This document shows positions 21,080 to 63,686 of a stretch of DNA of 64,000 bases, piece by piece (the stretch's first letter is position 1; each line of letters begins with the position of its first letter). The position numbers were made by a program, and so were the translations under genes. Below the pieces are notes generated by a model. The model saw nothing but the letters and a program-made list of their open reading frames with translations. It had not been told where the DNA came from and made no database searches. Origin of the DNA: Bacillus sp. FSL H8-0547 (GTDB taxonomy: Bacteria > Bacillota > Bacilli > Bacillales > Bacillaceae). The stretch spans positions 1,922,001-1,986,000 of the forward strand of contig JBBODD010000001.1 of the NCBI GenBank assembly GCA_038002745.1, read 5' to 3'.

Positions 21080-21866
21080 ACCCTCTAAAACTGAAAAACG
21101 ATGTGGGAGGGTAAGCAGCGGTTTGAATCGTATCCCGCCAAACCGTAAAACGATATGCGAGGGTAAGGAAACGCTGGAATCGCACCCTCTAAAACTGAAA
21201 AACGATATGGTAGGGTAAGCAACGGTTTGAATCGTACCCTGCCAAACCGAAAAACGGTATGCGAGGGTAAGCAAACGCCGGAATCGAACCCTGCCAAACC
21301 GAAAAACGATATGGTAGGGTAAGCAAACGCCGGAATCTTACCCCGCCAAACTGAATAACGATATGGGAGGGTAAGCAAACGCTGGAATCGTACCCTGCCA
21401 AACTGAAAAACGATGTGCGAGGGTAAGCAACGGTTTGAATCATACCCTGCCAAACCGTAAAACGATATGGGAGGGTAAGCAAACGCTGGAATCGTACCCT
21501 GCCAAACCGAAAAACGGTATGCGAGGGTAAGCAAACGCCGGAATCGTACCCTGTCAAACTGAAAAACGATGTGCGAGGGTAAGGAAACGCTGGAATCGCA
21601 CCCTCTAAAACTGAAAAACGATATGGTAGGGTAAGCAACGGTTTGAATCGCACCCTCTAAAACTGAAAAACGATGTGCGAGGGTAAGCAAACGCCGGAAT
21701 CTTACCCCGCCAAACCGAAAAACGATATGGGAGGGTAAGCAAACGCCGGAATCTTACCCCGCCAAACCGTAAAACGATATGGGAGGGTAAGGAAACGCCG
21801 GAATCGTCCCCCGCCAAACCGTAAAACGATATGGGAGGGTAAGGAAACGTCAGAATCGTACCCTCT
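21080..21866. repeat. 52-bp tandem array 1, 15 units
   Basis: Units start at 21080, 21132, 21184, 21236 and so on to 21808, with a partial at 21860: fifteen intervals of exactly 52 bp and no drift. Consensus layout: TACCCTGCC (9), 17 nt, GGGAGGGTA (9), 17 nt. The two 9-bp arms are inverted copies (TACCCT/AGGGTA always kept), so arms alternate every 26 bp. Units differ by scattered substitutions (for example ACCCTC/ACCCTG/ACCCCG, GATATG/GATGTG/GGTATG). Long open frames on the minus strand here are an artefact of the repeat. It lies between the topB terminator and the qox operon. Confidence 0.95.
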
Positions 21867-22282
21867 AATCGCCCAATGCTCTTGCTTAAAAAGTCCTCTC
21901 CCAAACTAGATACAAAGACTGAGAGTTTGAACATATTACAGAGTTTACCCCTTCTGCAGCAAGGGTAAAAGGAGGTTTGATGCTCTCTTTACTTATTTAT
22001 CCTTAAAAAGCAAAATTTTAATAAAAACACTTTCAATTCCATTAAAAGAAAGGACTGGAATAAATATGACTAAAGTATGATGAAAATGTGACATTTGTTT
22101 GAACGACTGATGAAATGTTCGTGACATTTAATGAAGGGTACTCACATGATGAAGCCTGCTCTGCTAGCATATAGAAGAAAAGAAAACGAAAACATCGTTT
22201 TTCTGCCATAATTTAAACGTGCTTTTTTTGCAAAAAGCATGCATAATAGTCATGCCATTAATTAGGAAGGAAGGTGAACCTG
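21867..22282. other. Intergenic region upstream of qoxA
   Basis: About 415 bp without a convincing gene. Seen: dyad TTTACCC/GGGTAAA around 21944-21970 immediately followed by AAAAGGAGG and an 8-codon frame (21980-22006); two direct copies of GTGACATTT at 22088 and 22121; a hairpin GAAAACGA/TCGTTTTTC near 22182-22203; a hairpin GCTTTTT/AAAAAGC near 22221-22239. One or more of these probably belongs to qox regulation, but I could not place a convincing SigA promoter. Confidence 0.4.
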
Positions 22283-23332
22283 GTGTTCAAGCTGTTTAAA
22301 CCGTTTTATGCGTTAGGTCTATTACTCTCTGTCTTTTTTCTGGGCGGATGCAGCAACTATGTGATCCTGGATCCGAAAGGGCCAGTTGCAGCTGCACAAA
22401 GTGACCTTATTCTTTTGTCGATAGGTTTTATGCTTTTCATTATAGCTGTTGTGTTTGTTCTGTTTACCCTCATTGTTATTAAATACCGTGAGCGCAAAGA
22501 CAACCTTGAATATGAGCCGCCTGAAATGGAAGGCAGCAAATTTCTTGAGATTGTCTGGACAGTTATTCCGATTCTGATCGTAATTGCGCTGTCTGTTCCG
22601 ACCGTTCAAACTATTTATGCACTTGAAAAGCCGCCTGAATCATCTAAACATAAGGAGCCTCTGGTTATACATGCAACATCGGTTGACTGGAAATGGATTT
22701 TCTCTTATGAAGAAGAGGGAATTGAGACTGTTAACTACTTAAACATTCCTGAAGACCGTGCTGTACTGTTCAAGCTTACTTCGGCTGACACAATGACAGC
22801 TTTCTGGATTCCGCAGCTTGGAGGACAAAAATATGCGATGTCCGGCATGCAGACTAAGCTTTATCTGCAGGCAGATGAGCCTGGAACGTATGCAGGCCGC
22901 AACGCGAACTTCACGGGTAAAGGCTTTGAAAGACATACATTCGATGTAGAAGCCATGCCTGAAGAAGAGTTTGAGAAGTGGGCAGAAGAAACAAAAGGTT
23001 CTGCACCTGAGCTAACGCAGGATCAGTACGATCAGCTTATGATTCCTGGCACAACTGGAGAAATGACATTCTCCAATACTCACCTTGAGTGGGTGGATCA
23101 TTCTAAAGACTCTGAATATGCAGTGAGAGTCCGCGAACAGACTGATTATGAGCTTCACAAGCACGATGAAGTTGAACACTTGGAAAAAATCGATCCAAAT
23201 AAAGAAATGAACATTGATCATACACAAAAATCAGAAGGTCATTCAGGACATGGTTCAGAACATTCTGAAGACGGGTCAGACCACTCTGAGCATGAATCAG
23301 ACGAAAAGACTGAAGAAGAACATTCTCACTGA
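22283..23332 (+). CDS. qoxA: Cytochrome aa3 quinol oxidase subunit II
   Basis: 349 residues. Lipoprotein signal peptide with lipobox FFLGGCSN, two membrane helices (about 40-65 and 85-110) and a periplasmic-side cupredoxin domain containing [11 protein letters not shown] and [13 protein letters not shown]. The CuA ligand set of cytochrome c oxidases is missing, as expected for a quinol oxidase. The tail is a long His/Glu/Ser-rich segment ([20 protein letters not shown]), longer than in B. subtilis QoxA and perhaps metal-binding. Start GTG at 22283 has AAGGAAGG 8 nt upstream. First gene of qoxABCD. Confidence 0.95.
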
Positions 23333-23352
23333 GAAGGGAGGAAACATCAACT

Positions 23353-25299
23353 ATGAAATGGGATGAATTTATTGTTATGGGCGATCCGCTGATACTCGGC
23401 GCCCAAATCTCAATACTGCTTACATCCATCGCCGTTGTGGCAGGCCTTACCTATTTTAAAAAGTGGAAATGGCTCTGGACAGACTGGATTACGACTGTCG
23501 ACCATAAGAAGCTTGGAATCATGTATATCATTGCTGCCATTCTTATGCTGTTCCGCGGGGGAGTAGATGCGCTCTTGATGCGCGCCCAGCTGACATTGCC
23601 AGATTCAGAGTTTCTGAATTCGCAGCATTACAATGAAATTTTCACGACTCACGGAACGATCATGATTATCTTCATGGCGATGCCGTTTTTGATTGGTCTA
23701 ATGAACGTTGTTGTTCCTCTGCAAATTGGAGCGCGCGACGTTGCATATCCGTACCTTAACTCATTAAGTTTCTGGACATTCTTTGTCGGTGCGATGCTGT
23801 TTAACATTTCGTTTGTTATCGGCGGATCACCTGATGCAGGCTGGACGAGCTACACGCCTCTCGCAGGCAACGAGGCAAGTCCCGGACCTGGACAGAACTA
23901 CTACCTTCTTGGCCTGCAGGTTGCCGGTATCGGTACCCTCCTGACAGGTATTAACTTCATGGTCACGATCTTAAAGATGCGTGCGCCTGGTATGACGCTA
24001 ATGCGCATGCCAATGTTTACTTGGACATCTTTAATCACTTGTTTGATTATCGTGTTCGCTTTCCCTGTACTGACAGTTGCGCTTGCTCTCATGTCATTTG
24101 ACAGGCTGTTCGGAACAGCTTTCTTCACCCTTGAGAACGGCGGTATGCCGATGTTATGGGCGAACTTGTTCTGGATTTGGGGTCATCCTGAGGTTTACAT
24201 CGTTATCTTGCCTGCGTTCGGGATTTTCTCAGAAATCATCTCAACGTTTGCACGAAAAACATTGTTCGGCTATAAAGCGATGGTTGTTTCCATCGTTGCA
24301 ATTTCTGGCCTAAGTTTCGTCGTTTGGGTTCACCATTTCTTCACGATGGGTTCAGGAGCACTTGTTAACTCGTTCTTCTCCATCACAACAATGGCGATCG
24401 CCATACCGACGGGTGTTAAAATATTCAACTGGCTCTTCACGCTTTACAAAGGAAGAATCAGATTTACTGTACCAATGCTCTGGTCACTTGCGTTTATTCC
24501 AAACTTCGTCATCGGCGGGGTAACAGGAGTTATGCTTGCGATGGCAGCAGCAGACTATCAGTACCACAATACGTACTTCCTGATTGCTCACTTCCATTAC
24601 GTATTGATTGCCGGAACCGTCTTCGCATGTTTCGCAGGTCTGATTTTCTGGTATCCGAAGATGTTCGGACACAAACTGAACGAAAAAATCGGGAAAGTCA
24701 GCTTCTGGCTGTTCACGATCGGTTTCAATATCTGTTTCTTCCCAATGTACTTCCTTGGGCTTGCAGGTATGCCACGCCGTATTTCGACGTATGGCGCTGC
24801 AGACGGATGGACGGGGCTTAACGTGGTAGCATCCATCGGTGCAATCGGAATGGCACTTGGATTCGTTGTTCTCGTATACAACATCTACTACAGCTTCCGC
24901 TACTCTCCGCGCGAGCAAACTGGAGATGCATGGGACGGCCGTACGCTTGAATGGTCTACAACAACAATGATTCCGCCTCACTACAACTTCGCGGTTACAC
25001 CTGAGGTAAAGGGTCTTGATGCATTCTGGCAAATGAAAATGGAAGAAAAAGAAACAGGCAAGAAAAAAGAAGTGGAATACAAGCCGATTCACATGCCTAA
25101 CTACTCAGGCAGACCGTTCATCATGTCCGTGTTCTTCGGAATCAGCGGTTTCGCTCTTGTATTTGAATGGTGGATTCCTGCCATTGCCGGTTTAATCGGA
25201 ATCTTTGCCTGCATGATCCTCCGTTCGTTCGAAGAAGATCATGGCTACTATGTAAGTGTTGAAGAAATTAAAGAAACAGAACAAAAAATATCTGTGTAA
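23353..25299 (+). CDS. qoxB: Cytochrome aa3 quinol oxidase subunit I
   Basis: 648 residues with twelve or more membrane helices. Haem-copper centre residues are visible: [14 protein letters not shown] (low-spin haem His), [17 protein letters not shown] (CuB His and cross-linked Tyr), [10 protein letters not shown] (CuB His pair) and HFHYVLIAG (haem ligands). It reduces O2 to water with quinol as donor and pumps protons. The start follows GGGAGGAAAC. It lies 20 bp after qoxA in the operon. Confidence 0.97.
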
Positions 25300-25313
25300 A
25301 GGAGGCGTGAATG

Positions 25314-25952
25314 ATGGAACATGCACATCATCATGAAGAACATGATCCGAGTGTGCCTCTTGAATATCAATCTGAAATAGGCCGATTGAATATTCTTGGC
25401 TTCTGGATCTTCCTTGGTGCTGAAATTGCCCTGTTTGCAACGCTATTTGCGACTTACTTCGTTCTTGCGCCGATGACAGCAGACGGCCCGCTGCCGACTG
25501 ATCTGTTTAAGATTGAAGGCGTCTTGATCATGACGTTTCTGTTGCTTACGAGCAGTTTCACATGTGGCCTTGCAATTCACGAATTGCGCCGTCACAACCA
25601 AAAAGGCGTCATCATGTGGACAATCATCACATTGGCCCTTGGACTGGGATTTGTCGGTTACGAAATATATGAGTTTGTAGAGTATGTTCACCATGGTGCT
25701 ACATTGCAGTCAAGTGCAATGTGGTCAGCATTCTTTGTTCTTGCAGGAACCCATGGACTTCACGTCACCATCGGGATATTCTGGATCAGTTTCATCTTAA
25801 TGCAAGTAAAGAAAAGAGGATTAACTCCTCAAACATCAGCTAAGCTGTTCATCTCAAGTCTTTACTGGCATTTCCTTGATGTTGTCTGGATTTTCATCTT
25901 TTCGGGAGTATACCTGCTCCTTATGATGGGAGGATTAAGTCCGCATGGCTAA
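25314..25952 (+). CDS. qoxC: Cytochrome aa3 quinol oxidase subunit III
   Basis: 212 residues with five membrane helices, starting MEHAHHHEEHDPSVPLEYQS and containing RLNILGFWIFLGAEIALF and LFISSLYWHFLDVVWIFIF, the conserved subunit III helices. ATG at 25314 lies 8 nt after GGAGG; 25311 is an in-frame ATG directly before it. The 3' end overlaps qoxD by 8 bp, showing tight coupling. Confidence 0.95.
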   Translation: MEHAHHHEEHDPSVPLEYQSEIGRLNILGFWIFLGAEIALFATLFATYFVLAPMTADGPLPTDLFKIEGVLIMTFLLLTSSFTCGLAIHELRRHNQKGVIMWTIITLALGLGFVGYEIYEFVEYVHHGATLQSSAMWSAFFVLAGTHGLHVTIGIFWISFILMQVKKRGLTPQTSAKLFISSLYWHFLDVVWIFIFSGVYLLLMMGGLSPHG

Positions 25953-26256
25953 TAATCAGCAAAACACAGCAGGAGATCACAACCACTTTCCGTGGAGTCA
26001 CGTGATAGGGTTTATCTCCTCGATTGTACTGACAATCGTCGCACTTTGGATTGGTTTATATACTGATTTTTCATTATCAATTAAAATAGCCGTTGTTTTC
26101 ACTCTGGCATTCCTTCAAGCTGGCATTCAGCTCTTCATGTTCATGCACATGACGGAATCAGAAAGCGGAAACGTACAGGTTGTCAATACAGCATTCGCGA
26201 TCTTTGTTGCCGTTGTAACAGTTCTTGGATCTGTATGGGTAATGAACGATCACTAA
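25945..26256 (+). CDS. qoxD: Cytochrome aa3 quinol oxidase subunit IV
   Basis: 103 residues with three membrane helices (VIGFISSIVLTIVALWIGLY, IAVVFTLAFLQAGIQLFMFM, AIFVAVVTVLGSVWVM). FMFMHM near the middle is typical of the small subunit IV that stabilises the oxidase core. It overlaps qoxC by 8 bp and is followed by a strong terminator. Confidence 0.94.
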   Translation: MANNQQNTAGDHNHFPWSHVIGFISSIVLTIVALWIGLYTDFSLSIKIAVVFTLAFLQAGIQLFMFMHMTESESGNVQVVNTAFAIFVAVVTVLGSVWVMNDH

Positions 26257-26263
26257 TAAACAG

Positions 26264-26298
26264 AAAAAATCCCGGACTTTGGTGTCCGGGATTTTTTT
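26264..26298. terminator. Bidirectional terminator between qoxD and ywcE
   Basis: Fourteen-bp stem AAAAAATCCCGGAC/GTCCGGGATTTTTT with loop TTTGGT. It ends both the qox operon and the convergent ywcE gene. Confidence 0.92.
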
Positions 26299-26581
26299 AT
26301 TTGATGATATCCAAATTGCTTTTAGGATCGGCTTTGCGTTTTAAGATCGGCTTCGCGTAAATCAGATAGGCTGCAACATGGGCGAACACCAGGTTAACAA
26401 GGAATAGTGACCCCCCGATAATGTGCAGCGGCATGGCAAGCTCCATTGTGGCAAACATTCCGAAGTACACCCACAGCATTAAGATGAACGGTATATGAAG
26501 GAGCGCCAGGCTTTTTCGCTGATCCCACAAGAAGAGCGGCGTAGCACTTACAATGAGCAAATAGACGAAGAATACATCCAT
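26297..26581 (-). CDS. ywcE: YwcE holin-like spore morphogenesis protein
   Basis: 94 residues, three membrane helices (VFFVYLLIVSATPLFLW, ALLHIPFILMLWVYFGM, IIGGSLFLVNLVFAHVAAYL) and a short basic tail. It matches B. subtilis YwcE in size, composition and position beside qoxD; that protein is needed for normal spore envelope formation and germination. I chose the ATG at 26581 because GGGAG lies 9 nt upstream; the TTG at 26590 is less likely. Convergent with qoxD. Confidence 0.82.
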   Translation of the reverse strand: MDVFFVYLLIVSATPLFLWDQRKSLALLHIPFILMLWVYFGMFATMELAMPLHIIGGSLFLVNLVFAHVAAYLIYAKPILKRKADPKSNLDIIK

Positions 26582-26907
26582 GTTTAACAACTCCCGTTTA
26601 AAATTATTGTCAACGCTTACATAAATAAAAATGTGACAAACAAGAAAATATTTTGTGAACGTTTTGTTACAATTAGTATATCACATCAGGGTTAAAATTC
26701 CAGTGTTTCTAACTATTTCTTTTAATTAAATTTTCAAAAAATAAAACATCATACATTCTCTTATTCTTATTCTATTTTTAACTGCCCGCATAAGAACAAA
26801 TTCTTTGTCCATGCCACTAACTGACAGAACCTTATAAATTGACAGATAATTGATGGGTATAGTAGGATTAGGCTAATTTATGTACAACAGGATGGGGGAT
26901 ATATGAA
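26582..26907. promoter_or_regulatory. Divergent ywcE / ATP-grasp intergenic region
   Basis: About 325 bp with AT-rich promoter DNA. For the plus-strand ATP-grasp gene a SigA-like pair TTGACA (26839-26844), 18 nt, TAGGAT (26863-26868) is visible. Nearer ywcE lies TTGTGAACGTTTTGTTACAA, an imperfect dyad that could bind a redox regulator such as ResD, but it does not fit the Rex consensus. No further gene is seen. Confidence 0.45.
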
Positions 26908-27855
26908 ATGAGCAAAGTGTATATTATTCATGAAAATAAAGAGTGGACAGACCATCTGACGAAAAGACTGGACGAACTGAATGTTCCATATGAGGAATGG
27001 CATCTCGATCAGGGGCTTGTGAATCTGTCTGAAGCACCGCCTGAGGGAATCTTCTATAATCGCATGAGCGCTTCTTCACATACGAGAGGCCACCGGTATG
27101 CACCGGAACTTGCAGCGTCTGTGCTGTACTGGCTTGAACGCCATAACCGCAAAGTCTATAACGGCAGCAGGGCTATTCAGCTTGAAGTGAGCAAGGTTGC
27201 TCAGTATATGACCTTAAATGAGCACGGCATTCAAACTCCGAAAACAACAGCTGCTGTTGGAAAAGAGGCTGTATTAAACGCAGCAGCCCAATTTGAAGGA
27301 AAACCTTTCATTACAAAGCATAACCGTGCAGGAAAAGGACTTGGTGTTCAGCTTTTCCATTCCATTGAAGGACTGAAGCAGTATGTGGAAGGTCCGGATT
27401 TTGAGGAGCCGGTAGACGGCATTACTCTTATTCAGGAATACATTCAGGCGCCTGAGCCGTATATCACGCGCTGCGAATTTGTTAACGGCAAATTCCTGTA
27501 TGCTGTGCGAGTAGACACGTCAGAAGGATTTGAGCTTTGCCCGGCTGACGCCTGCCAGATTGGCGATCTCTTCTGCCCGGTTGGAGAGGAAGCTCCTGTC
27601 AAACCAAAGTTCCAGATTGTTGATGACGTGAATGAAGAAAGCATTTCAAAATATGAAACGATGCTGAAAGCAAATGACGTTAAAGTGGCAGGTATTGAAT
27701 TCATCCGCGATGCAAACGGCGAGATCTACACATATGATATCAATACCAACACAAATTATAATGGAGACGCAGAGGCGGCGGCAGGGAAATACGGCATGCT
27801 CGAAATTGCGAAGGTGCTGAAAGCAGAGCTTGAGAAAATGGCGCTGACTGTATAA
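26908..27855 (+). CDS. ATP-grasp family ligase (RimK-like)
   Basis: 315 residues with an ATP-grasp core: KPFITKHNRAGKGLGVQLF is the glycine-rich nucleotide loop, GITLIQEYIQAPEPYITRCE holds metal/ATP contacts, and GIEFIRDANGEIYTYDINTN carries the conserved acidic D-x-N residues. The first ~95 residues form a preATP-grasp domain. Relatives join an amino acid or carboxylate to an amine via acyl phosphate; substrates here are unknown. It is monocistronic with a promoter of its own and a bidirectional terminator downstream. Confidence 0.82.
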   Translation: MSKVYIIHENKEWTDHLTKRLDELNVPYEEWHLDQGLVNLSEAPPEGIFYNRMSASSHTRGHRYAPELAASVLYWLERHNRKVYNGSRAIQLEVSKVAQYMTLNEHGIQTPKTTAAVGKEAVLNAAAQFEGKPFITKHNRAGKGLGVQLFHSIEGLKQYVEGPDFEEPVDGITLIQEYIQAPEPYITRCEFVNGKFLYAVRVDTSEGFELCPADACQIGDLFCPVGEEAPVKPKFQIVDDVNEESISKYETMLKANDVKVAGIEFIRDANGEIYTYDINTNTNYNGDAEAAAGKYGMLEIAKVLKAELEKMALTV

Positions 27856-27876
27856 GAATATAGACTGATAAACAGC

Positions 27877-27909
27877 AAAAGACCGTCTGGGGAAGCCAGA
27901 CGGTCTTTT
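27877..27909. terminator. Bidirectional terminator between ATP-grasp and yjiH-like genes
   Basis: Fourteen-bp perfect stem AAAAGACCGTCTGG/CCAGACGGTCTTTT with loop GGAAG, located between two convergent genes. Confidence 0.92.
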
Positions 27910-27916
27910 AACGATT

Positions 27917-29257
27917 TTAAAACAATATATGAGCAATACCGACAATCACCGGCAGTGTAATCAGTGTACGGAGCAGGAAGATAATCACGAGATCTTTAAA
28001 GGAAACCGGGATTTTAGATCCTAGCAGCAGTCCGCCCACTTCAGACATATAGATAAGCTGTGTGACAGATACACAGGCGATAATGAACCGGGTCATCTCA
28101 CTTGTAATATCAGCAGCGAGAACAGTTGGAAGGAACATGTCGGCAAATCCGACAACAAGTGTTTTTGATGCTTCCTGTGCTTCTGGTATCTGCATCAGTT
28201 CAAGCAGCGGAATAAACGGCATGCCAAGCCAGTCAAAAACAGGCGTGAATTCAGCAACGACCAGCGCAATGGTTCCAAGAGCCATAACAATCGGGGCTAC
28301 ACCCATCCACATATCAAGAATGTTTTTAGCGCCGTCCTGGAAAAATGCTGCTGTGCTTTTATTTTCTTCTGCTTTTTTAAGCGCCTGTTTATACCCCCAG
28401 CTGAATGGCGTATAGCCCTCAGGCACGGCTTCTGAAATTTGTTCCTCTTGTCCGTTGTAATACGTATCTGCTTTTACAGAAAGCGGAGGTATTCTCGGAA
28501 GAACAAGAGCTGCAATGATTCCTGCAAATGTGACTGTCAGATAAAAAGGCACAAACATATGACCAAGGTTAACCTGAGAAATCACGACAAGGCTGAATGT
28601 AATGGAAACCACAGAAAAGCTTGTTCCGATTATGGCAGCTTCCCTCTTCGTATAAAAGCCCTCTTCATACTGTTTGCTTGTCAGCAGCACGCCGATGGTT
28701 CCGTCCCCGAGCCAGGAAGCGACACAATCGACAGAAGATCTGCCGGGAAGCTTAAAAACAGGTCTCATAAATTTAGCAAGCAGTGAACCGAAAAGTTCAA
28801 GCAGTCCGAAGTTTAATAGCAGAGGCAGAAGCAGCCCTGCAAAAAAGAAAACGGAAAACAAAATCGGAAGCAGATCATTAAGCAGAAGTCCTCCGGTGTT
28901 TTCAGACCAGATCCATTCCGGGCCTGCTTTAAAAAGCGTAAGCACGGCGAAAATGGCGCCAAGTACACGTGCAATCACCCAGATAACCGGAACATCAAAC
29001 AAGGTTGTAAAGAACGGGCTCTTTGCAACGAAGTCCGGTTTCATCCATTTGGCTGCAAGTGTCCCGATAAGTGTCAGGATAATGATAACAGTCATGACCG
29101 CCGGAAGCGACGGGCCAAGAGCCTTCTGCAGCATTCCGGAGAAGATGGCGATTGGAATGGTCACTTCACCTTTATAGCTGATCGGAACCATAAATAAAAG
29201 AATTCCCAGCAGGGAAGGGAAAATAAATTTTAGTTTGTTTTTCGTCTGTGAAGTCAA
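27917..29257 (-). CDS. YjiH-family nucleoside-recognition (Gate) membrane protein
   Basis: 446 residues, about eleven membrane helices. The Gate-domain signature GRSSVDCVASWLGDGTIGVL follows the third helix pair, and the C-terminal half contains SEMTRFIIACVSVTQLIYMS and GLLLGSKIPVSFKDL. The YjiH family belongs to the nucleoside-recognition/transporter superfamily; the transported solute is not established. The coding strand opposes the upstream ATP-grasp gene. A GGAGC ribosome-binding site precedes the ATG. Confidence 0.85.
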   Translation of the reverse strand: MTSQTKNKLKFIFPSLLGILLFMVPISYKGEVTIPIAIFSGMLQKALGPSLPAVMTVIIILTLIGTLAAKWMKPDFVAKSPFFTTLFDVPVIWVIARVLGAIFAVLTLFKAGPEWIWSENTGGLLLNDLLPILFSVFFFAGLLLPLLLNFGLLELFGSLLAKFMRPVFKLPGRSSVDCVASWLGDGTIGVLLTSKQYEEGFYTKREAAIIGTSFSVVSITFSLVVISQVNLGHMFVPFYLTVTFAGIIAALVLPRIPPLSVKADTYYNGQEEQISEAVPEGYTPFSWGYKQALKKAEENKSTAAFFQDGAKNILDMWMGVAPIVMALGTIALVVAEFTPVFDWLGMPFIPLLELMQIPEAQEASKTLVVGFADMFLPTVLAADITSEMTRFIIACVSVTQLIYMSEVGGLLLGSKIPVSFKDLVIIFLLRTLITLPVIVGIAHILF

Positions 29258-29461
29258 TTCAGATGCTCCTTACGTAAAAGTACATATTTATGTAACCTGT
29301 GTTATTTTAATGCAAACAGGGAGAAAAGCCAATGCCTTTAAGCAAATTTCCTGTATTTTCTCCTTTTTTTACCCTGTAAAAGTGTTCCCTAAGCCTAGTA
29401 TCTGCAAAAAAGGTGAAACTTAGGTAAGATAAGAAAAACGAACAAAAAGGAGAGGGATCCT

Positions 29462-39092: not shown

Positions 39093-39144
39093 TGAACTCG
39101 GGTGACAGGTTTTTGATGGAATTAGAGTCCTGTAATCAGGTGCG

Positions 39145-39370
39145 GCTGAAATATGGGGCAGCAAAAGGTGAAAATGGTGCCCTATGAAGTGATGCAGCTG
39201 AAATATGGGGCAAAAAAAGGTGAAAATGGAACCCTATAAAGTGGTGCGGCTGAAATATGGGGTAGCAAAAAGTGAATATGGTGCCCCATAAAGTGGTAGG
39301 GCTGAAATATGGGGCAGCAAAAAGTAAAAATGGAACCCTATAATAAAGCACGGCTGAGATAAAGGGCATT
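39145..39370. repeat. 52-bp tandem array 2, four units plus a degraded fifth
   Basis: GCTGA repeats start at 39145, 39197, 39249, 39301 and 39353: four intervals of exactly 52 bp. Each unit holds TATGGGGCA (9), 17 nt, TGCCCTATA or TGCCCCATA (9), 17 nt, an inverted pair with arms every 26 bp. In two units the right arm reads GAACCCTATA. It lies between convergent sacA and pdxK, just before a bidirectional terminator. The sequence is unrelated to array 1 apart from geometry. Confidence 0.9.
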
Positions 39371-50652: not shown

Positions 50653-50692
50653 AAAAAAGCAGGCAGGAGGGGAGTTCCTTGCCTGTTTTTTT
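50653..50692 (+). terminator. Terminator after lipL
   Basis: CAGGCA-GGA/TCC-TTGCCTG stem with a 7-nt loop, flanked by AAAAAAG and TTTTTTT. Confidence 0.78.
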
Positions 50693-50701
50693 GTACTCGT
50701 C

Positions 50702-51793
50702 TTCACTGTACAAAGTTTGTGCTGTAAACCAGTGCTTAAAAGCACTTTAGCATCTTCCCAGAAAAGAGTTTGTGCAGCAAACCTGGTTTAAGAGCACTAA
50801 CGTATCTTCCCAGAAAAGGGTTTGTGCTGCTAACAAGGTTTAAGAACACTTACACGTCTTCCCAGAGAAGAGTTTGTGTTGCTAGCAAGGTTTAAGAGCA
50901 CTAACGTATCTTCCCAGAAAAGGGTTTGTGCTGCTAACAAGGTTTAAGAACACTAACGTATCTTCCCAGAGAAGAGTTTGTGCTGCTAACCAGGTTTAAG
51001 AGCACTAAGGCATCTTCCCAGAAAAGGGTTTGTGCTGCTAACAAGGTTTAAGAATACTAAGGCATCTTCCCAGAGAAGAGTTTGTGCTGCTAGCAAGGTT
51101 TAAGAGCACTAAGGCATCTTCCCAGAGAAGAGTTTGTGCTGCTAACAAGGTTTAAGAACACTAAGGCATCTTCCCAGAGAAGAGTTTGTGCAGCTAGCAA
51201 GGTTTAAGAGCACTAACGCATCTTCCCAGAGAAGAGTTTGTGCTGCTAGCAAGGTTTAAGAACACTAACGCATCTTCCCAGAGAAGAGTTTGTGCTGCTA
51301 ACAAGGTTTAAGAGCACTAACGCATCTTCCCAGAAAAGGGTTAGTGCTGCTAACCAGGTTTAAGAGCACTTTAGTATCTTCCCAGAAAAGAGTTTGTGCT
51401 GCTAACAAGGTTTATGAGCACTAACGCGTCTTCCCAGAGAAAAGTTTGTGCTGCTAGCAAGGTTTAAGAGCACTTTAGTATCTTCCCAGAAAAGGGTTTG
51501 TGCTGCTAACAAGGTTAAAGAACACTAACGTATCTTCCCAGAGAAGAGTTTGTGCTGCTAACCAGGTTTAAGAGCACTAAGGCATCTTCCCAGAGAAGAG
51601 TTTGTGCTGCTAACCAGGTTTAAGAGCACTTTAGTATCTTCCCAGAAAAGAGTTTGTGCTGCTAACCAGGTTTAAGAGCACTAAGGCATCTTCCCAGAAA
51701 AAAGTTTGTGCTGCTAACAAGGTTTAAGAACACTAACGCACCTTCCCAGAGAAGAGTTTGTGCAGCAAACCAGTTTTAAGAACACTAACGCCC
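50702..51793. repeat. 52-bp tandem array 3, 20 units plus a diverged first
   Basis: CTTCCCA begins at 50754, 50806, 50858 and every 52 bp to 51742: nineteen intervals of exactly 52 bp. A diverged unit precedes it from 50702. Each unit carries GTTTGTGCT (9), 16 nt, AGCACTAAC (9), 18 nt, an imperfect inverted pair (one mismatch), again with arms about every 26 bp. Variation is concentrated at a few positions (CTAACGTA/CTAAGGCA/CTTTAGTA and AAGAG/AAGGG). Between convergent lipL and rsfA; no reading frame is preserved. Confidence 0.95.
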
Positions 51794-55412: not shown

Positions 55413-55598
55413 TTATTGATCACTAAGTCTCTTTCCGCCAACACCATAATGATTTTTGCTCATTTCTTCAATAAATACAGTGACTTTCTCGGCAGGAGCG
55501 CCTGTTGTTTCGGATACAGCTGCAGTTACCTTTTCGACTAATGCCTTTTTCTGGTCTTCTGTGCGGCCTTCAAGCATTTTTACAGTTACGTATGGCAT
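55413..55598 (-). CDS. ywhB: 4-Oxalocrotonate tautomerase family protein YwhB
   Basis: 61 residues. The catalytic Pro1 is exposed after Met removal (MPYVTVKMLEGRTEDQKKAL), and GAPAEKVTVFIEEMSKNHYGV completes the small homohexameric tautomerase fold. Physiological substrate unknown. A GGAGAG ribosome-binding site precedes ATG. Confidence 0.87.
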   Translation of the reverse strand: MPYVTVKMLEGRTEDQKKALVEKVTAAVSETTGAPAEKVTVFIEEMSKNHYGVGGKRLSDQ

Positions 55599-55683
55599 GT
55601 TACACTCTCCTTTTTGTATTCTAGCTGGATTCTTCTATAGTATACTTGAAGGAGAATAGAATGTTTAGCGAGGAGAATGATTG

Positions 55684-56346: not shown

Positions 56347-56358
56347 GAGGTTATTTTA

Positions 56359-56874
56359 ATGGAGCAAGATAAGAAAAAGAAAAAGGTCGCGTTTAATATT
56401 ATTAAGAACGATCCCACTGACGGCCACGGCGGCTACGGGGTCGGTGCACTGAGCCTTGAGAATATTTCGCCTGTCTTTATAGATGTAAATGAAGGGGAAG
56501 CTTTTGTCGACATCGGTGCGATGCATGCGAGAAGCACGGTTGAAAAGGGCATTAAGTTTCTTCCGAACAAGGAAGATGTGCCGAACGGAAAGCCGTTCTG
56601 GCTCGTATGGGTGACCATTGACCGCAAAGCGGAAGGGCCGTACTACGCTGGTGTAACGGCTTGTGAAATGACGGTCGACCGTGAAATCAGAAGGGGCTAT
56701 AAGTCGCTGCCTGAACACGTAAACAAGATGGATAAATCCCTTAAGCGCCATATTATGGTTGATCACATGGATGCACCTTCTAAAGGGGTTTTGATGAACT
56801 TTTTGAAAAACCATAACGCAGACATGTGGAACAACTCCGGTGCGGAGCTGAAAACAGGGCTCGGAGAATCGTGA
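56359..56874 (+). CDS. ywhD: YwhD-family protein
   Basis: 171 residues. VAFNIIKNDPTDGHGGYGVG, IGAMHARSTVEKGIKFLPNK and GYKSLPEHVNKMDKSLKRHI are conserved in the Bacillaceae-specific YwhD family. Soluble, function unknown. It follows ywhC by 12 bp with an AGGAGG ribosome-binding site and ends before a bidirectional terminator. Confidence 0.88.
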   Translation: MEQDKKKKKVAFNIIKNDPTDGHGGYGVGALSLENISPVFIDVNEGEAFVDIGAMHARSTVEKGIKFLPNKEDVPNGKPFWLVWVTIDRKAEGPYYAGVTACEMTVDREIRRGYKSLPEHVNKMDKSLKRHIMVDHMDAPSKGVLMNFLKNHNADMWNNSGAELKTGLGES

Positions 56875-56957
56875 CAATCCTGTGACGTTCCTGTGAACAA
56901 ATTGTCAAATTCTTTCGATTTTAGTAAACTGAAGATAGCTTATAAAGCTAGGACACG

Positions 56958-56991
56958 AAAAACCCCGGACCATGGGCGGTCCGGGGTTTTT
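56958..56991. terminator. Bidirectional terminator between ywhD and pbpG
   Basis: AAAAACCCCGGACC/GGTCCGGGGTTTTT, loop ATGGGC. Confidence 0.9.
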
Positions 56992-57014
56992 CATCTTTTA
57001 GGGGCGGCTGCTGC

Positions 57015-59081
57015 CTAGTCCCACCATTTCCATACATTTTTGTACCACGTTTCTTCCTGCTTTTCTTCACCTTTTTGAGGACTGCTGTTCCCGTCTTCTA
57101 AGTGATCAGTGCAATATTCCGTCGGCTCTGTGCCTTTTACGAAATAAGCGAATCTCTTAGTAGGACAGTTGTCAGATGCGAGCTTGCCTGTCTTCGGATT
57201 GATGTAGACGCCGATGACGCCTTTTGGAGGGGAGAAAGCCTTCACGGACTCATCCTTCAGCGCTTCTTCCATAAACCCGGCCCAAATATCCTTGGCATAG
57301 CTGCGTTCTGCTACTGCATCGATTGTCTGGTCTTTATCGTAGCCTGTCCAGACACCTGCAACAAGCTGCGGGGCATAGCCGATCATCCAGCTGTCGGTCT
57401 TTGTCGTACCGGATTTTCCTGCATATTCCCGCGAAAGCTTCGGGATGATGGCATGGCCGGTAACGGATGTATAATCATTCAGCTGCTCATCAAACATTCC
57501 AGTCATCAAATGGGATGTGACAAAGGCTGCTTCTGCGTTCAGTACTTGTTCACCTGTTTTTTCCTTCTGGTAAATAACGTTTCCTTCTGCATCTTCCACT
57601 CTTTTAATGAAAGAAGGCTCGATTTGCTTGCCGCCGTTTGCAAGCATCCCGTATCCGCCGACCATTTCAGAAAGTTTTACGGGAGACGTGCCTAATGCAA
57701 GGGACGGCACCTTCTGCAGCCTGCTTGTAATGCCCAGTGCTTTTGATGTATCAATCAGTTCATTCATGCCAAGGAAAAGGTGTGTTTTCACAGCATAGAT
57801 GTTGTCTGAAAGTGCAATGGCCTGTGCAAGCGTAATATCGCCGTCTGCATAATAGCCATTATAGTTGCTTGGCTTGTAAACCGATTTGCCGTCCTCAAAT
57901 TTGAACGTATACGGTTCGCTTTTCAGCAGGGTAGAAGGGGTGAACCCTTTGTTCACTGCGGCATAATAGAGAAACGGCTTCATAGTCGAACCAGGCTGTC
58001 TCTTAGCCTGCGTAGCCCTGTTGAAGGGGCTTGCTGAATAGTCTCTTCCGCCGATCAGCGCCTTTACCTGCCCCGTTTTCGGGTCCATGGCCATAAAGCC
58101 TGCCTGGATGGCTGAGTCTTCATCAATGATGTCCGCCATCTTCTGCTCCGCCATTTTTTGCATCTCAAGATCGAGGGTTGTGAAAATCCGCAATCCCCGC
58201 GTTTCAATTGTGACTCTGTCAAGGTTGAGCTTTTCAGACAGCTCTTTCATGACAGCATCCTGGAAATACGGGGCTGATTCGGGTGCTTTGACAGCTTCGA
58301 CTGCTCTGTATTTTAATGGCTCATTATAGGCTTTATCTGCTTCTGCCTGAGAGATCAGCTCTTGGTTCACCATCGTTTTCAGGATCAGTTCCTGCCTGCT
58401 TTTCGCACGCTCCTGATTGTCAAAAGGAGAATAAGAGCCTGGGGCTTTAGGGATTCCTGCAAGCATTGATGCTTCAGCCAGGGATAATTCTGCGGCCGTT
58501 TTGTCAAAATAATACCTGGCGGCAGCTTCAGCTCCGTATGCCCCGTGTCCGTAGTAAATTGTATTTAAATAGCCTTCCAGAATTTCTTCTTTGCTGTAAT
58601 TCAGCTCAAGGCGTATGGTGTAAAACGCTTCTGACAATTTTCGCTTCCATGTTTTATCGTGTCCAAGATAAAGGTTCCGTGCGTATTGCTGGGTAATGGT
58701 GCTCGCCCCCTGAACCTTTGCCATCGCTTTTAAGTCTGCTATCGCAGCACCGGCAATCCGTTTATAGTCAAACCCGTGATGACTGTAAAAGTGCCTGTCC
58801 TCGACGGCCACTGTCGCTGCCAGCAGGGAAGGGGACATTTCTTCGAGATTCACCCAGTACCGTTTGCCGCCGTGGTGGGTCCTTGCAATCTCAGACCCGT
58901 CACCTGCATACATAATGGAAGACTGCTGAACGGCCAGGGAAGGAGCACCCTGCCATTTAGCTGTAAGCATGATGGTGCCGAGCAAGACTGACCCTGTAAA
59001 AATGGCAATAAGACTGATAAAAAAAGCAGCTCGTACGGCTTTGATAGTTATGCGCATTCTCCGCGGCGTCATAACCTCCAT
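57015..59081 (-). CDS. pbpG: Penicillin-binding protein 2d (class A)
   Basis: 688 residues, bifunctional. N-terminal anchor (AAFFISLIAIFTGSVLLGTI), glycosyltransferase domain with EDRHFYSHHGFDYKR, QGASTITQQYARNLYLG and the conserved GYLNTIYYGHGAYGAEAA, then the transpeptidase domain with the active-site Ser in KRQPGSTMKPFLYY (STMK), SDN and KSGTT. It polymerises and cross-links peptidoglycan; in B. subtilis PbpG is expressed in the forespore under SigF. ATG 59081 follows GAGGTGGGG; the upstream in-frame Met (59129) has no ribosome-binding site. Confidence 0.94.
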   Translation of the reverse strand: MEVMTPRRMRITIKAVRAAFFISLIAIFTGSVLLGTIMLTAKWQGAPSLAVQQSSIMYAGDGSEIARTHHGGKRYWVNLEEMSPSLLAATVAVEDRHFYSHHGFDYKRIAGAAIADLKAMAKVQGASTITQQYARNLYLGHDKTWKRKLSEAFYTIRLELNYSKEEILEGYLNTIYYGHGAYGAEAAARYYFDKTAAELSLAEASMLAGIPKAPGSYSPFDNQERAKSRQELILKTMVNQELISQAEADKAYNEPLKYRAVEAVKAPESAPYFQDAVMKELSEKLNLDRVTIETRGLRIFTTLDLEMQKMAEQKMADIIDEDSAIQAGFMAMDPKTGQVKALIGGRDYSASPFNRATQAKRQPGSTMKPFLYYAAVNKGFTPSTLLKSEPYTFKFEDGKSVYKPSNYNGYYADGDITLAQAIALSDNIYAVKTHLFLGMNELIDTSKALGITSRLQKVPSLALGTSPVKLSEMVGGYGMLANGGKQIEPSFIKRVEDAEGNVIYQKEKTGEQVLNAEAAFVTSHLMTGMFDEQLNDYTSVTGHAIIPKLSREYAGKSGTTKTDSWMIGYAPQLVAGVWTGYDKDQTIDAVAERSYAKDIWAGFMEEALKDESVKAFSPPKGVIGVYINPKTGKLASDNCPTKRFAYFVKGTEPTEYCTDHLEDGNSSPQKGEEKQEETWYKNVWKWWD

Positions 59082-59193
59082 GTTCCCCACCTCATTTCTG
59101 CATCTTTTCGGAATACGTGAAACCCGCATCCTTTCCTGTTAATCAGTATGAGAAAATCTCAGTCTTTTTAAACCTTTTCTATTAAAATTCTTC

Positions 59194-59221
59194 TTGCAAT
59201 TTTGCTAGATTCATCTATACT
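59194..59221 (+). promoter_or_regulatory. Promoter for speE-speB
   Basis: TTGCAA, 16 nt, TATACT, about 107 bp before the speE ATG. Confidence 0.55.
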
Positions 59222-59328
59222 TTTCCGTGAGGTTTTGAACTCGAAATTTGGCGAATCAGAATGACCGATTAGGGAATAATCGTTACTGTAGCTTTAAAAG
59301 AAACTATATATAGAAAGGAAGTTTTAAA

Positions 59329-60159
59329 ATGGGAGGACATTGGTTTACAGAAAAACAAACCGAAAACTTCGGTATTACAATTAAAATTAACCGCACTTTA
59401 CATACAGAGCAGACAGAATTCCAGAAGCTTGACATGGTCGAAACAGAAGAGTGGGGCAACATGCTTCTTTTGGACGGCATGGTTATGACGTCACAGGTGG
59501 ACGAGTTCGTCTACCATGAAATGGTTGCTCACGTACCGCTGTTCACTCATCCAAATCCTGAAAACGTTCTTGTTGTAGGCGGAGGAGACGGCGGGGTTAT
59601 CCGTGAAATCATGAAGCACCCAGGCGTGAAAAAAGCGACGCTTGTTGATATCGACGGAAAAGTGATCGAGTACTCTAAAAAGTACCTGCCTGAAATTGCC
59701 GGAGAGCTTGAAAATGAGCGCGTAGAGGTTAAAGTAGGCGACGGATTTATGCACATCGCAGAGAGCAATAACGAATACGACGTGATCATGGTTGATTCTA
59801 CAGAGCCTGTAGGGCCTGCTGTGAACCTTTTCTCTAAAGGCTTCTATGCTGGAATTTCAAAAGCGCTTAAAGAAGACGGCATCTTTGTTGCACAGTCAGA
59901 CAACCCTTGGTTCACGCCTGACCTGATCCGCAACGTGCAGCGTGACGTTAAGGAAATTTTCCCGATTACCCGTCTTTACACAGCAAACATCCCGACATAC
60001 CCAAGCGGACTTTGGACGTTCACACTTGGATCGAAAAAATATGATCCGCTTGAAGTAAGCGAAGACCGCTTCCATGAGATCGAAACGAAGTATTACACAA
60101 AAGAGCTTCATAAAGCAGCGTTTGTCCTGCCGAAATTTGTAGCAGATCTTATCAAATAA
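59329..60159 (+). CDS. speE: Spermidine synthase
   Basis: 276 residues. SAM-like cofactor loop [19 protein letters not shown], the acidic [16 protein letters not shown] gate and [10 protein letters not shown] substrate loop are all present. Catalyses aminopropyl transfer from decarboxylated SAM to putrescine. Start after AGGAAGT. It precedes the agmatinase gene by 16 bp in an operon, so arginine-derived putrescine can be used at once. Confidence 0.95.
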
Positions 60160-60175
60160 TCAGGAGGAAACACAA

Positions 60176-61057
60176 ATGCGATTTGATGAAGCCTATTCAG
60201 GCAACGTTTTTATTAAAAGCCACCCGACATTCGAAGACAGCGAAGCCGTTCTGTACGGCATGCCGATGGACTGGACGGTCAGCTACCGTCCAGGCTCCAG
60301 GTTCGGTCCGACGCGCATCCGCGAAGTGTCTATCGGTCTTGAAGAATACAGCGCGTATTTAGACCGCGAGCTTGAGGAAGTAAAATACTTTGATGCAGGT
60401 GACATTCCGCTTCCGTTTGGAAATGCGCAGCGCAGCCTTGATATCATTGAAGACTTCATTGATAAACTACTGGCGGAGGATAAGTTCCCGCTTGGCATGG
60501 GCGGAGAACATCTCGTTTCCTGGCCGGTCATTAAAGCAATGTATAAAAAATATCCGGACCTTGCGATCATCCATATGGATGCCCATACAGATCTTCGTGA
60601 AGAGTACGAAGGAGAGCCTCTTTCCCACTCAACGCCGATCCGCAAAGCAGCCAATCTGATCGGACCGTCAAATGTGTATTCATTCGGGATCCGTTCAGGC
60701 ATGAAGGAAGAATTTCAGTGGGCAAAGGAAAACGGCATGCACATCTCGAAATTCGAAGTGCTGGAGCCGCTGAAGGAAATCCTTCCGACTCTTTCCGGAC
60801 GTCCGGTTTATGTCACAATCGACATCGATGTTCTTGATCCGGCACATGCACCTGGAACGGGAACTGTTGATGCCGGCGGGATTACATCAAGAGAACTGCT
60901 TGCTTCCATTCATGCGATTGCAGGCTCGGACATTCATGTTGTCGGTGCAGACCTCGTAGAAGTCGCGCCTATCTATGACAACTCTGAACAGACGGCCAAT
61001 ACAGCAAGCAAACTGATCCGTGAAATGATTTTAGGCTGGGTGCAAAAGCGCCCGTAA
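60176..61057 (+). CDS. speB: Agmatinase
   Basis: 293 residues, ureohydrolase fold. Mn-binding motifs: MGGEHLVSWP (109-112 GGEH), MDAHTDLR (135-139) and DIDVLDPAHAPGTG. It converts agmatine to putrescine and urea, supplying speE. ATG follows AGGAGG. Terminator right after the stop. Confidence 0.94.
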   Translation: MRFDEAYSGNVFIKSHPTFEDSEAVLYGMPMDWTVSYRPGSRFGPTRIREVSIGLEEYSAYLDRELEEVKYFDAGDIPLPFGNAQRSLDIIEDFIDKLLAEDKFPLGMGGEHLVSWPVIKAMYKKYPDLAIIHMDAHTDLREEYEGEPLSHSTPIRKAANLIGPSNVYSFGIRSGMKEEFQWAKENGMHISKFEVLEPLKEILPTLSGRPVYVTIDIDVLDPAHAPGTGTVDAGGITSRELLASIHAIAGSDIHVVGADLVEVAPIYDNSEQTANTASKLIREMILGWVQKRP

Positions 61058-61060
61058 TGA

Positions 61061-61093
61061 GAAAAGCTCCAGTTCAAAACTGGAGCTTTTTCA
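61061..61093 (+). terminator. Terminator after speB
   Basis: GAAAAGCTCCAGTT/AACTGGAGCTTTTTC, loop CAAA. Confidence 0.9.
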
Positions 61094-61150
61094 TTTTTGG
61101 GTATAAATGACCCCAGAACGTCAACGATGATAACTACTACTTGCCTTCTA

Positions 61151-61179
61151 TTGAATTTTCTGCCCGAAATCTTTATACT
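61151..61179 (+). promoter_or_regulatory. SigA promoter for ywiB-argS
   Basis: TTGAAT, 17 nt, TATACT, 42 bp before the ywiB ATG. Confidence 0.75.
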
Positions 61180-61220
61180 GGATAAGTTAATAGCGGATAC
61201 TTTTATAAGGATGTGTGACA

Positions 61221-61652
61221 ATGACGGCAAGCAAACCAGTTCAAGTGATCGTAAAAACGGAGATCAATCAGGGCGGGGACACAGAAAACCTGGAGCTTTT
61301 TACTTCCGGCGAACACTATGTAAAAAACAACGCCTCCTATTTAAGCTATCACGAGGAACACGAGTACGGAAAAGTAAAAACGGTCGTCAAATTCAGGGAT
61401 GATGAAGTGTTTATTATGAGGTCCGGGGCCGTCTCCATGAAGCAGCGCTTTGTAAAAGATGTGGACACCATGACAAACTACAGGACGCAGTTCGGGGAAC
61501 TCAGGCTTGAAACGTGGACAAAAACCATTTCTGTCAGGATGACTGACGGGAACGCAGGCGGCATCATCCGTGTTCAATATGAACTTCAAATCGGCGAAGA
61601 AGATTCGCATTCACATATGTTAACGATCATGTTTAGGGAGGAAAAAGGATGA
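61221..61652 (+). CDS. ywiB: YwiB-family protein (DUF1934)
   Basis: 143 residues. [20 protein letters not shown] and [20 protein letters not shown] plus [10 protein letters not shown] match the DUF1934/YwiB lipocalin-like beta-barrel family. It starts at ATG 61221 after AAGGA (not the upstream GTG 61215). It overlaps argS by 4 bp, so the two are coupled. Function unknown; the strict link to argS is conserved in Bacillus. Confidence 0.85.
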
Positions 61653-63319
61653 ACATCGTTGAGCAGGTTAAAGAACGGTTAAAGGACGAAATTAAAGCAT
61701 CAGTACTTAAGGCTGGACTTGCAGAAGAAAGTCAGATTCCTGACGTGATCTTAGAGCTTCCGAAAGAAAAAGCCCATGGAGACTATTCAACAAACATGGC
61801 GATGCAGCTTGCGCGTGTTGCAAAAAAAGCACCGCGAGCAATCGCAGAAGATATTGTAGCTTCTTTTGATAAAGGAAAGGCGTCAATTGAAAAAATTGAA
61901 ATTGCCGGACCCGGTTTCATCAATTTTTACATGAATAATTCATACCTCACAGATCTTATTCCGTCTATTCTTGACGCAGGAGAGGCATACGGCGAAGTGA
62001 ACATCGGCAACAATGAAAAGCTTCAGGTTGAGTTTGTATCAGCCAACCCGACAGGCACGCTTCACTTGGGCCACGCCCGCGGTGCAGCGGTCGGCGATTC
62101 CCTGTGCAACATTCTTGATAAAGCAGGCTACGATGTTTCCCGCGAATATTACATCAACGATGCAGGCAATCAGATCAACAACCTCGCTCTGTCAGTTGAA
62201 GCGCGCTACCTTCAGGCTCTCGGACAGGACGCAGCGATGCCTGAAGACGGCTACCACGGCAAGGACATCATTGACATCGGCAAAAAGCTTGCTGATGAAT
62301 TCGGCGACCGGTTTGTGTCAGAAAGCAAAGAAGAACGCCTTGCGTTTTTCCGTGAGTACGGCCTGAAATTCGAAATGGATAAATTGAAGAAGGATCTGGA
62401 TGCTTTCCGCGTGCCGTTTGACGTCTGGTATTCAGAAACATCTCTTTACCAAAACGGGAAAATTGACGATGCTCTTGCCGTTCTCCGCGAAAAGGGACAT
62501 ATTTTCGAGGAAGACGGAGCGACATGGTTCCGTTCAACTGCTTACGGCGATGATAAAGACCGCGTGCTTATTAAAAACGACGGCTCTTACACGTACTTAA
62601 CGCCGGATATCGCTTATCACAAAGATAAGCTTGACCGCGGTTTTACAAAGCTGATCAACATCTGGGGCGCTGACCACCACGGCTACATTCCGCGTATGAA
62701 AGCGGCAATTGAAGCCCTAGGATACGAAAAAGACACGCTGGAAGTTGAAATCATTCAGCTCGTTCACTTATATAAAAACGGCGAAAAGATGAAAATGAGC
62801 AAACGGACAGGCAAAGCTGTGACGATGCGCGATCTGATGGAAGAAGTAGGACTTGATGCTGTACGCTATTTCTTCGCGATGAGAAGCGCTGATACCCACA
62901 TGGACTTTGACATGGACCTTGCAGCATCACAGTCAAACGAAAACCCGGTATTCTATGCCCAATATGCACATGCCCGCATCGAAAGCATGCTGCGCCAGGG
63001 GGCAGAGCAGGGACTTTCATACGAAGGTGTTCAGGACTTTAAAGATATAGCGTCTGAAAAAGAAGTCGAGCTTCTGAAAAAACTCGGCGAATTCCCGCAG
63101 GCAGTAGCAGAAGCAGCTGTAAAGCGGATCCCGCACAGAATCACAAACTACATTTATGATCTGTCTTCTGCGCTTCACAGCTTCTACAACGCAGAAAAAG
63201 TGCTTGACCCTGAAAACGAAGCGAAAAGCAAAGCGCGTCTCGCTTTAATGAGAGCAACACAAATTACATTGAAAAACTCGCTTACACTAATTGGAGTATC
63301 TGCTCCTGAAAAGATGTAA
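61649..63319 (+). CDS. argS: Arginyl-tRNA synthetase
   Basis: 556 residues, class I synthetase. The HIGH motif variant [12 protein letters not shown] (139-142) and the KMSK motif in [12 protein letters not shown] bind ATP. N-terminal additional domain (about 1-115) recognises the tRNA D-loop; the C-terminal DALR-type anticodon domain includes [20 protein letters not shown]. Starts at ATG 61649 overlapping ywiB. No T-box leader is visible before this operon. Followed by a strong terminator. Confidence 0.97.
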
Positions 63320-63324
63320 GGAAG

Positions 63325-63355
63325 AAAGAACGGCTGATGGCCGTTCTTTTTTTTG
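63325..63355 (+). terminator. Terminator after argS
   Basis: AAGAACGGC/GCCGTTCTT, loop TGATG, TTTTTTTT. Confidence 0.9.
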
Positions 63356-63365
63356 TAGGAAATGG

Positions 63366-63686
63366 CAGGAATCGTATGTTAAAAACGGCCGGCGCCAGGA
63401 AATAGCATAAGTAAAAGGCAGAATCGTACGTTATAAGTGACTTGCGCCAGGAAGATAGCATAAGAGCACAGGAGAATCGTACGTTATAAGTGGCTAACGC
63501 ACGGAAGATAGCATAAGAAAACAGGAGAATCGTACGTTATAAGTGGCTGTCGCACGGAAGATAGCATAAGAAAACAGGAGAATCGTACGTTATAAGTGGC
63601 TGTCGCATGGAAGATAGCATAAGAAAACAGGAGAAACGTACGTTAAAAATGGCTGGTACCGAAAAGATAGCATACAAAAACAGCAA
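63366..63686. repeat. 52/53-bp tandem array 4, six units
   Basis: AATCGTACGTT (or variant) begins at 63370, 63422, 63475, 63528, 63581 and 63634: intervals 52, 53, 53, 53, 53. Each unit contains the palindrome CGTACG and GATAGCATAA. Inverted arms are much weaker than in the other arrays (CGTATGTTA/TAGCATAAG in the first unit only partly pairs), so geometry is less clear. Located just after the argS terminator. Confidence 0.88.

Follow-up and report, generated by a model that had tools for sequence, protein, structure and literature searches.

Why should four tandem arrays of largely unrelated sequence be built from units of one and the same length, 52 bp? The question is raised by a stretch of 64,000 nucleotides from Bacillus sp. 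FSL H8-0547 (contig JBBODD010000001.1, positions 1,922,001-1,986,000), called the window in the following. The GC skew of the 4.11-Mb chromosome turns from minus to plus near 1.80 Mb, and the window is therefore situated near the replication origin. As a tentative answer, we propose that the arrays are architectural duplex DNA organised in five-turn modules, which a protein may wrap or bend near gene ends.

The arrays were first noticed in a preliminary description of the window, and Tandem Repeats Finder (TRF) recovered all four of them between genes, with units of 52 bp, or 52-53 bp in the fourth. On the + strand, array A1 (family FA1) occupies 21077..21865 with about 15 units, A2 39139..39368 with about 4, A3 (family FA3) 50702..51793 with about 21 (TRF 50714-51791, 20.7 copies) and A4 (family FA4) 63369..63686 (TRF 63369-63656, 5.5 copies). 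Successive units of A4 start 52, 53, 53, 53 and 53 bp apart, and a degenerate final unit reaches to about 63686. Self-identity at lag 52 is 0.74-0.85 in A1-A3, versus 0.17-0.37 at lags 48-51 and 53-55; in A4 it is 0.76 at lag 53. The arrays had been described as devoid of mutual similarity, which holds for five of the six unit pairs (p 0.18-0.98) and not for A1 and A4, which both contain GAATCGTAC and show borderline similarity (p=0.056). A profile of the A1 family scores A2 (p=0.02) and A4 (p=0.03) weakly; joining A2 and A4 to FA1 (z 2.6 each), or A2 to FA4 (z 2.8) or to family F277 (z 2.3), was rejected as too weak a basis for merging families. Interpretation as clustered regularly interspaced short palindromic repeats (CRISPR) would require identical repeats with unique spacers between them, whereas in each array of the window the likeness extends over the entire 52-bp unit; no search for cas genes was made.

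The length of 52 bp characterises a class of repeats in this genome. A sample consisting of the window and 20 evenly spaced 20-kb stretches (464 kb) contains 36 TRF arrays. In 15 of them, 11 of which come from the stretches beyond the window, the unit is 52 or 53 bp, and no array has any other unit between 25 and 107 bp. The unit-length histogram suggested in the preliminary description, here drawn from this sample rather than from the whole genome, thus reveals a real excess at 52 bp. A larger set of about 1.02 Mb, partly selected by BLAST matches to the families, yielded 75 arrays of 52-53 bp. Their anchor-to-anchor spacings between 40 and 64 are 52 (510 times), 53 (113), 51 (9), 44 (20) and 48, 54 and 59 (once each). 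The 20 spacings of 44 pair with 20 spacings of 8, the anchor word apparently being present twice per unit, and a few listed spacings outside 40-64 represent missed or doubled anchors. The class is not limited to the main contig, as F277 has a match on a second contig of 112 kb (G000:C2:67006-67385). In 80 named loci of Bacillaceae (1.61 Mb), units cluster at 20-21, 41-42 and 52-53 bp; 51 of 63 arrays with 15-106-bp units lie at most 1.05 bp from a multiple of 10.4, as opposed to 22% of integers, an excess driven mostly by the 20-21 and 52 classes.

Two other kinds of repeats were encountered. Units of 122-123 bp form a second class (L014:17061-17450, L019:455-683, L024:3482-4227 and L026:15856-16235) and share CCGCTTTTCG-like and CCAGCTCC words on either strand. 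A 21-nt class is represented by the word TTGGATTGTTAG, spaced by multiples of 21 bp in several clusters, including G000:C1 977363-977437; its matches (21 reverse, 5 forward) have no orientation consistent with replication.

According to the preliminary description, no named family of this kind was known. The class has nevertheless been in print since 2020-2021 (PMC8161180, citing a 2020 paper). Subirana and Messeguer (2021, PMC8161180) reported repeats of 52 nt, constant in size and variable in sequence, for roughly 30% of the Bacillus species they examined. A unit contains short words together with their reverse, and the authors pointed to nucleoid proteins or small RNAs. In their Table 1, B. 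indicus averages 90 tandem repeats, 96.6% of them of 52 nt, and its family 7_52_18 is, compared by eye, the family of A1. The arrays described here belong to this class of Bacillus and Paenibacillus repeats, all five of its characters being present: units of 51-53 nt, non-coding location, several unrelated families per genome, inverted words within the unit, and species specificity with partial conservation among relatives. The 20-21-nt Bacillus repeats of the same paper likewise have a constant length near whole helical turns, and the present genome has its own such class in TTGGATTGTTAG; they differ in spanning two turns, in consisting of one word and a variable spacer, and, for the TTGGATTGTTAG set, in lacking consistent replication orientation. 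As far as searched, what is new is the retention of length despite substitutions, fixed word offsets without covariation, the 10.4-bp A+T modulation, replication polarity and the near absence of solitary words. In the main text of PMC8161180 we saw nothing on base composition phased with the helix, on polarity by replication, on suppressed indels or on set word offsets that lack covariation; the comparison covered this text and passages of PMC8625621 and PMC6749651.

How strictly is the length kept? In the 75 arrays, units hold 52 or 53 bp while substitutions build up: 67 distinct indel variants accompany 1677 substitution variants, a ratio of 0.040, and all listed indels but one measure 1-2 nt. 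The nearest relative found is Metabacillus indicus LMG 22858 (LipL identity 98%), and array-free intergenic DNA aligned with it gave 228 gaps per 2087 substitutions, or 0.109. The factor between the two ratios is approximate: aligners and penalties were not the same for the arrays and the intergenic DNA, TRF has a bias towards regular arrays, and at least one indel is present in 36 of the 75.

Does the sequence, free as it is, follow the helix? Consensuses of 136 units (75 from the own genome, 44 from M. indicus and 17 from M. idriensis; TRF gives a length of 52 bp for 109 and of 53 bp for 27) form 25 clusters by greedy clustering, used instead of single linkage, which lumped 133 of them together. 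One representative of each of these Metabacillus clusters and 15 arrays of other genera were compared with array-free intergenic 52-mers. In the pooled representatives the fifth harmonic, corresponding to 10.4 bp, is raised for AA/TT (p=0.001; next harmonic p=0.066) and for A/T (p=0.0007). Table 1 of PMC8161180 lists 27 consensuses, and in a set of 19 of them, which represent 11 other species, the fifth harmonic is the largest of 13 for both A/T (z=6.3) and AA/TT (z=4.0); left out of this set were indicus, four look-alikes and three consensuses whose length is 50 or 54 nt, and n was filled randomly. Of the 136 consensuses, 38 have the fifth harmonic as the strongest of 13, where 10.5 would be expected, although the families are not independent. 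The sequence is free, yet its A+T content tends to track the helix. The earlier proposal of a geometric constraint of about five helical turns is supported by this modulation of unrelated arrays, together with their fewer indels in comparison with other intergenic DNA.

These observations suggest how such arrays might work. Each unit of 52 (or 53) bp would make five helical turns, and an A+T-rich face would give way to a G+C-rich one once in every turn; all units of one array would then bend or wrap in one plane. A DNA-wrapping or DNA-bending protein would occupy successive units in phase. Putatively, it would read mainly shape and spacing, which would explain both the freedom of sequence, with families coming and going, and the constancy of length, since a change of length would break the phase and be removed. 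Duplex wrapping in five turns accounts for the length, the A+T wave and the rarity of indels, and is compatible with the position and polarity described below; an RNA or a purely mutational origin fails to account for the helical phase. There is a precedent for a protein reading DNA of this kind: E. coli gyrase recognises a degenerate 130-bp motif whose GC content is modulated at 10.75 bp, and arrays of bacterial interspersed mosaic elements (BIMEs) of type BIME-2 hold an excess of its cleavage sites (PMC6379681). Gyrase or a nucleoid protein might be guessed as the ligand; gyrase is a candidate only, and the periods differ (10.75 versus 10.4-10.6).

Within the unit, each large family has two inverted words placed at a set offset around locus-specific spacers. 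Counting only words found once per array, the offset from TACCC to GGGTAAG in FA1 is 30 in 39 of 45 arrays (the others being 31, in four 53-bp units, and 29, in two), that from TTGATGG to CCATCAA in F277 is 28 in 40 of 40, and the offsets are 31 in nine of 12 matches of FA4 and 17 in seven of seven of family F332. Word geometry thus varies by family, and the common feature is limited to the total of 52 or 53. The inverted 9-bp arms with 16-18-nt spacers that had been attributed to three arrays can be seen by eye in A1-A3; the arms of A4 measure 11 bp, contain mismatches that are conserved, and enclose spacers of 20 and 11. That arms alternate every ~26 bp is, to judge by the start-to-start offsets given above, not a general rule.

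Inverted words at fixed offsets would be expected if each family supplied half-sites of dyad symmetry to a dimeric protein of its own, the array serving to make binding cooperative. The inner arm positions are mismatched and the mismatches conserved, which likewise fits such sequence-specific operators. Yet the 25 clusters of the three species would demand many proteins, and solitary sites are nearly missing. Among 1105 matches to five word pairs in the ~1.02 Mb, five lie outside arrays (2, 2, 0, 0 and 1 per pair, against 327, 590, 68, 57 and 58 inside); reversed patterns, as a control, gave 0 for each pair, palindromes being counted on both strands and array zones including 60 bp on each side. 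The sites are therefore neither ordinary regulatory operators nor decoys for them, and the decoy explanation was rejected on the same count. We regard sequence-specific operators in general as improbable.

Inverted arms could also pair in RNA, and folded RNAs or sponges transcribed from the arrays have been proposed in PMC8161180 and PMC8625621, the latter recording transcription of 52-nt satellites in B. coagulans. A palindrome is significant at p<=0.05 in 37 of the 75 units (mononucleotide shuffles), and RNA of the + strand folds below -2 z in 23 of 75. However, arm columns pair no better than permuted ones in FA1 (p=0.11) or F277 (p=0.72), and positions that do not pair are conserved; the lack of covariation is evidence against an RNA hairpin, and the RNA fold named in the preliminary description as a possible constraint finds no support in it. 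No sense is favoured, the leading sense being the more stable in 38 of 75; the window has no Rfam match at gathering score; and a 10.4-bp modulation would be meaningless for RNA. We consider an RNA function quite unlikely.

Where do the arrays lie? With genes called by our own gene caller and open reading frames (ORFs) mainly within an array set aside, none of the 75 arrays lies inside a called gene. Minus-strand frames over A1 were rejected as genes and read as chance, because 52 is no multiple of three and A3 is devoid of any ORF of at least 90 aa. In stretches of about 20 kb or longer, arrays occupy 6 of the 64 convergent spacers, 12 of the 305 between co-oriented genes and 1 of the 74 divergent ones. 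As a purely descriptive figure, the median distance of arrays is 101 bp to gene 3' ends and 214 bp to 5' ends. In the window, A1 is located between topB(+) and qoxA(+); A2 between scrB(+) and a pdxK/thiD-like gene(-), a convergent pair; A3 between a lipL-type octanoyl/lipoyltransferase gene(+) and an rsfA-type regulator gene(-), also convergent; and A4 directly 3' of argS(+). Hairpins with T runs, resembling intrinsic terminators by eye, stand on the + strand immediately before A1 (21018..21046, after topB), A3 (50660..50693, after lipL) and A4 (63326..63354, after argS).

The arrays are also polarised with respect to replication. Their purine-rich strand is the leading strand in 62 of the 75 own-genome arrays: 30 of 39 between leading-strand genes, 20 of 22 in convergent spacers, four of four between lagging-strand genes, four of six in divergent spacers and four of four with one neighbour unseen. 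Outside Metabacillus the same is true of 14 of 16 arrays, L116 being counted once and L059, L060 and L070 (which agree) and L108 (which disagrees) being left out as Metabacillus or its group. One of these, L060 (genome G049), is titled Peribacillus frigoritolerans F-D2; it falls into the same genus group as the window genome, with a LipL identity of 91%, and is probably misnamed. Leading strands of Firmicutes are known to be richer in purines in general (PMC4070872). The polarity of the arrays exceeds that of array-free DNA of the same class: the leading strand has a mean purine fraction of 0.585 in convergent arrays versus 0.517 in convergent spacers without an array (n=32, p=4e-5).

In FA1, the orientation of the unit itself follows replication, and in A1 the purine-rich GGGTAAG sense is on the + strand, which is the leading one. 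Orientation matches replication in 19 of 19 own arrays, five of six in M. indicus and 12 of 13 in M. idriensis, in total 36 of 38 (p=5e-9). Most of the M. indicus and M. idriensis stretches were picked at FA1 matches (16 from M. idriensis and 4 from M. indicus, a non-random choice), two M. indicus arrays are apparently orthologues of own ones, and replichores of these draft genomes were assigned by GC skew over about 20 kb. Two near-members below the score cut were left out, of which 3358769 disagrees and 3397719 agrees with replication. Few FA1 cases separate replication from transcription, and replication is therefore a likely, not a proven, cause of this polarity. An intergenic, convergent-leaning and replication-polarised position of the arrays may point to a role in local topology, such as the handling of supercoils, or in organisation of the nucleoid.

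Replication polarity would also suit selfish satellites, whose length of 52 nt would be fixed by slippage or rolling-circle-like amplification at the fork and which would have no function for the host. Turnover of the arrays is fast. In largely syntenic regions (364 kb with 11 arrays in the own genome, 335 kb with 5 in M. indicus), A1, A2, A3, a277k and one more array are common to both, with copy numbers that differ, although copies may be collapsed in the drafts of M. indicus and M. idriensis; A4, a147k, a288k and a332k have no counterpart in these 335 kb, and a12k and a35k are not fully comparable. At the empty sites of A4 and a332k, no target-site duplication was seen by eye, a short unrelated stretch being present in M. 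indicus instead; at a288k another repeat intervenes, and the right flank of a147k was not found. In another genus, genome G064 has a 52-bp x 13 array downstream of lipL, where A3 is located in the window. No similarity of this array to A3 could be detected (p=0.31), and no rsfA turned up in the short stretch that follows it. Each of the five families searched matches just two or three of seven genus members. This turnover, the patchy distribution and the scarcity of words outside arrays all favour the selfish alternative. On the other hand, a length set at birth predicts neither rare indels amid substitutions nor a helical A+T modulation in unrelated sequences. We consider selfish satellites unlikely, though the most probable of the alternatives.

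The proposal of five-turn architectural DNA has its own difficulties, which we collect here. The indels found in nearly half of the arrays, and the unequal alignment methods behind the indel ratio, have been given above. Three of the seven genus members (G045, G048 and G050) match none of the five families searched. The harmonic signal is not confined to the fifth: in the pooled set the A/T harmonics 6 (p=0.015) and 11 (p=0.004) are raised as well, the A/T signal of the Metabacillus representatives, taken by themselves, is stronger at harmonic 11 (p=0.001) than at harmonic 5 (p=0.013), and the other-genus arrays by themselves (n=15) give a weak AA/TT signal (p=0.07), with A/T at p=0.0075. Polarity has exceptions too. 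The purine-rich strand is lagging in nine of the 39 arrays between leading-strand genes; FA1 arrays whose neighbours are not both leading-strand genes follow replication in eight of ten cases (p=0.11); and F277 is weakly oriented, with 16 of 24 following replication (by eye, two ambiguous). Finally, the conserved inverted words at fixed offsets in FA1 and F277 suggest base-specific recognition. A pure shape code needs no words, and several unrelated word sets per genome would call for several proteins; these family-specific words are left unexplained by architectural wrapping.

Palindromes between genes also recall repetitive extragenic palindromic (REP) elements and the BIMEs composed of them, mobilised by RAYT (Y1 HuH) transposase. 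The arrays resemble E. coli BIME-2/REP arrays in their intergenic location; imperfect palindromes, a mark of those elements, reach significance in the 37 of 75 units counted above. The replication polarity resembles insertion based on single-stranded DNA, which speaks for this origin as well, and one match to the transposase family PF01797 is present in M. indicus. The differences are these: the unit is fixed at 52/53, its sequences are free, and PF01797 has 0 matches in the own genome, in M. idriensis and in G064, each of which has 52-bp arrays. PF01797 was matched in 33 of 80 family genomes. A RAYT/REP origin was accordingly rejected for PF01797 in the own genome, and mobilisation of this kind seems highly improbable.

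Elsewhere in the window (7164-9084), a 22-bp x 3.3 tandem repeat is situated immediately upstream of a ParM-like actin ORF (7320-8510; NCBIfam FcmB and ParM matches, both far below cut-off), which is followed by a 186-aa ORF at 8524-9084. Together they may represent a chromosomal segregation cassette of centromere, actin and adaptor.

What would the arrays mean for their hosts? They may carry a largely sequence-independent code of DNA shape, common to several genera and to unrelated sequences and composed of a five-turn module, one A+T wave per turn and a purine-rich leading strand, and serve as putative multi-site wrapping platforms, for gyrase or a nucleoid protein, near gene ends. Such a code, if true, would be a bacterial satellite counterpart of nucleosome-positioning DNA. 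Helical modulation and replication polarity convert hitherto unexplained repeats into a testable claim about duplex geometry. If these signals hold, some Bacillaceae would possess roughly a hundred shape-coded satellites (a number extrapolated from 11 arrays per 400 kb outside the window), which may organise supercoiling or the nucleoid.

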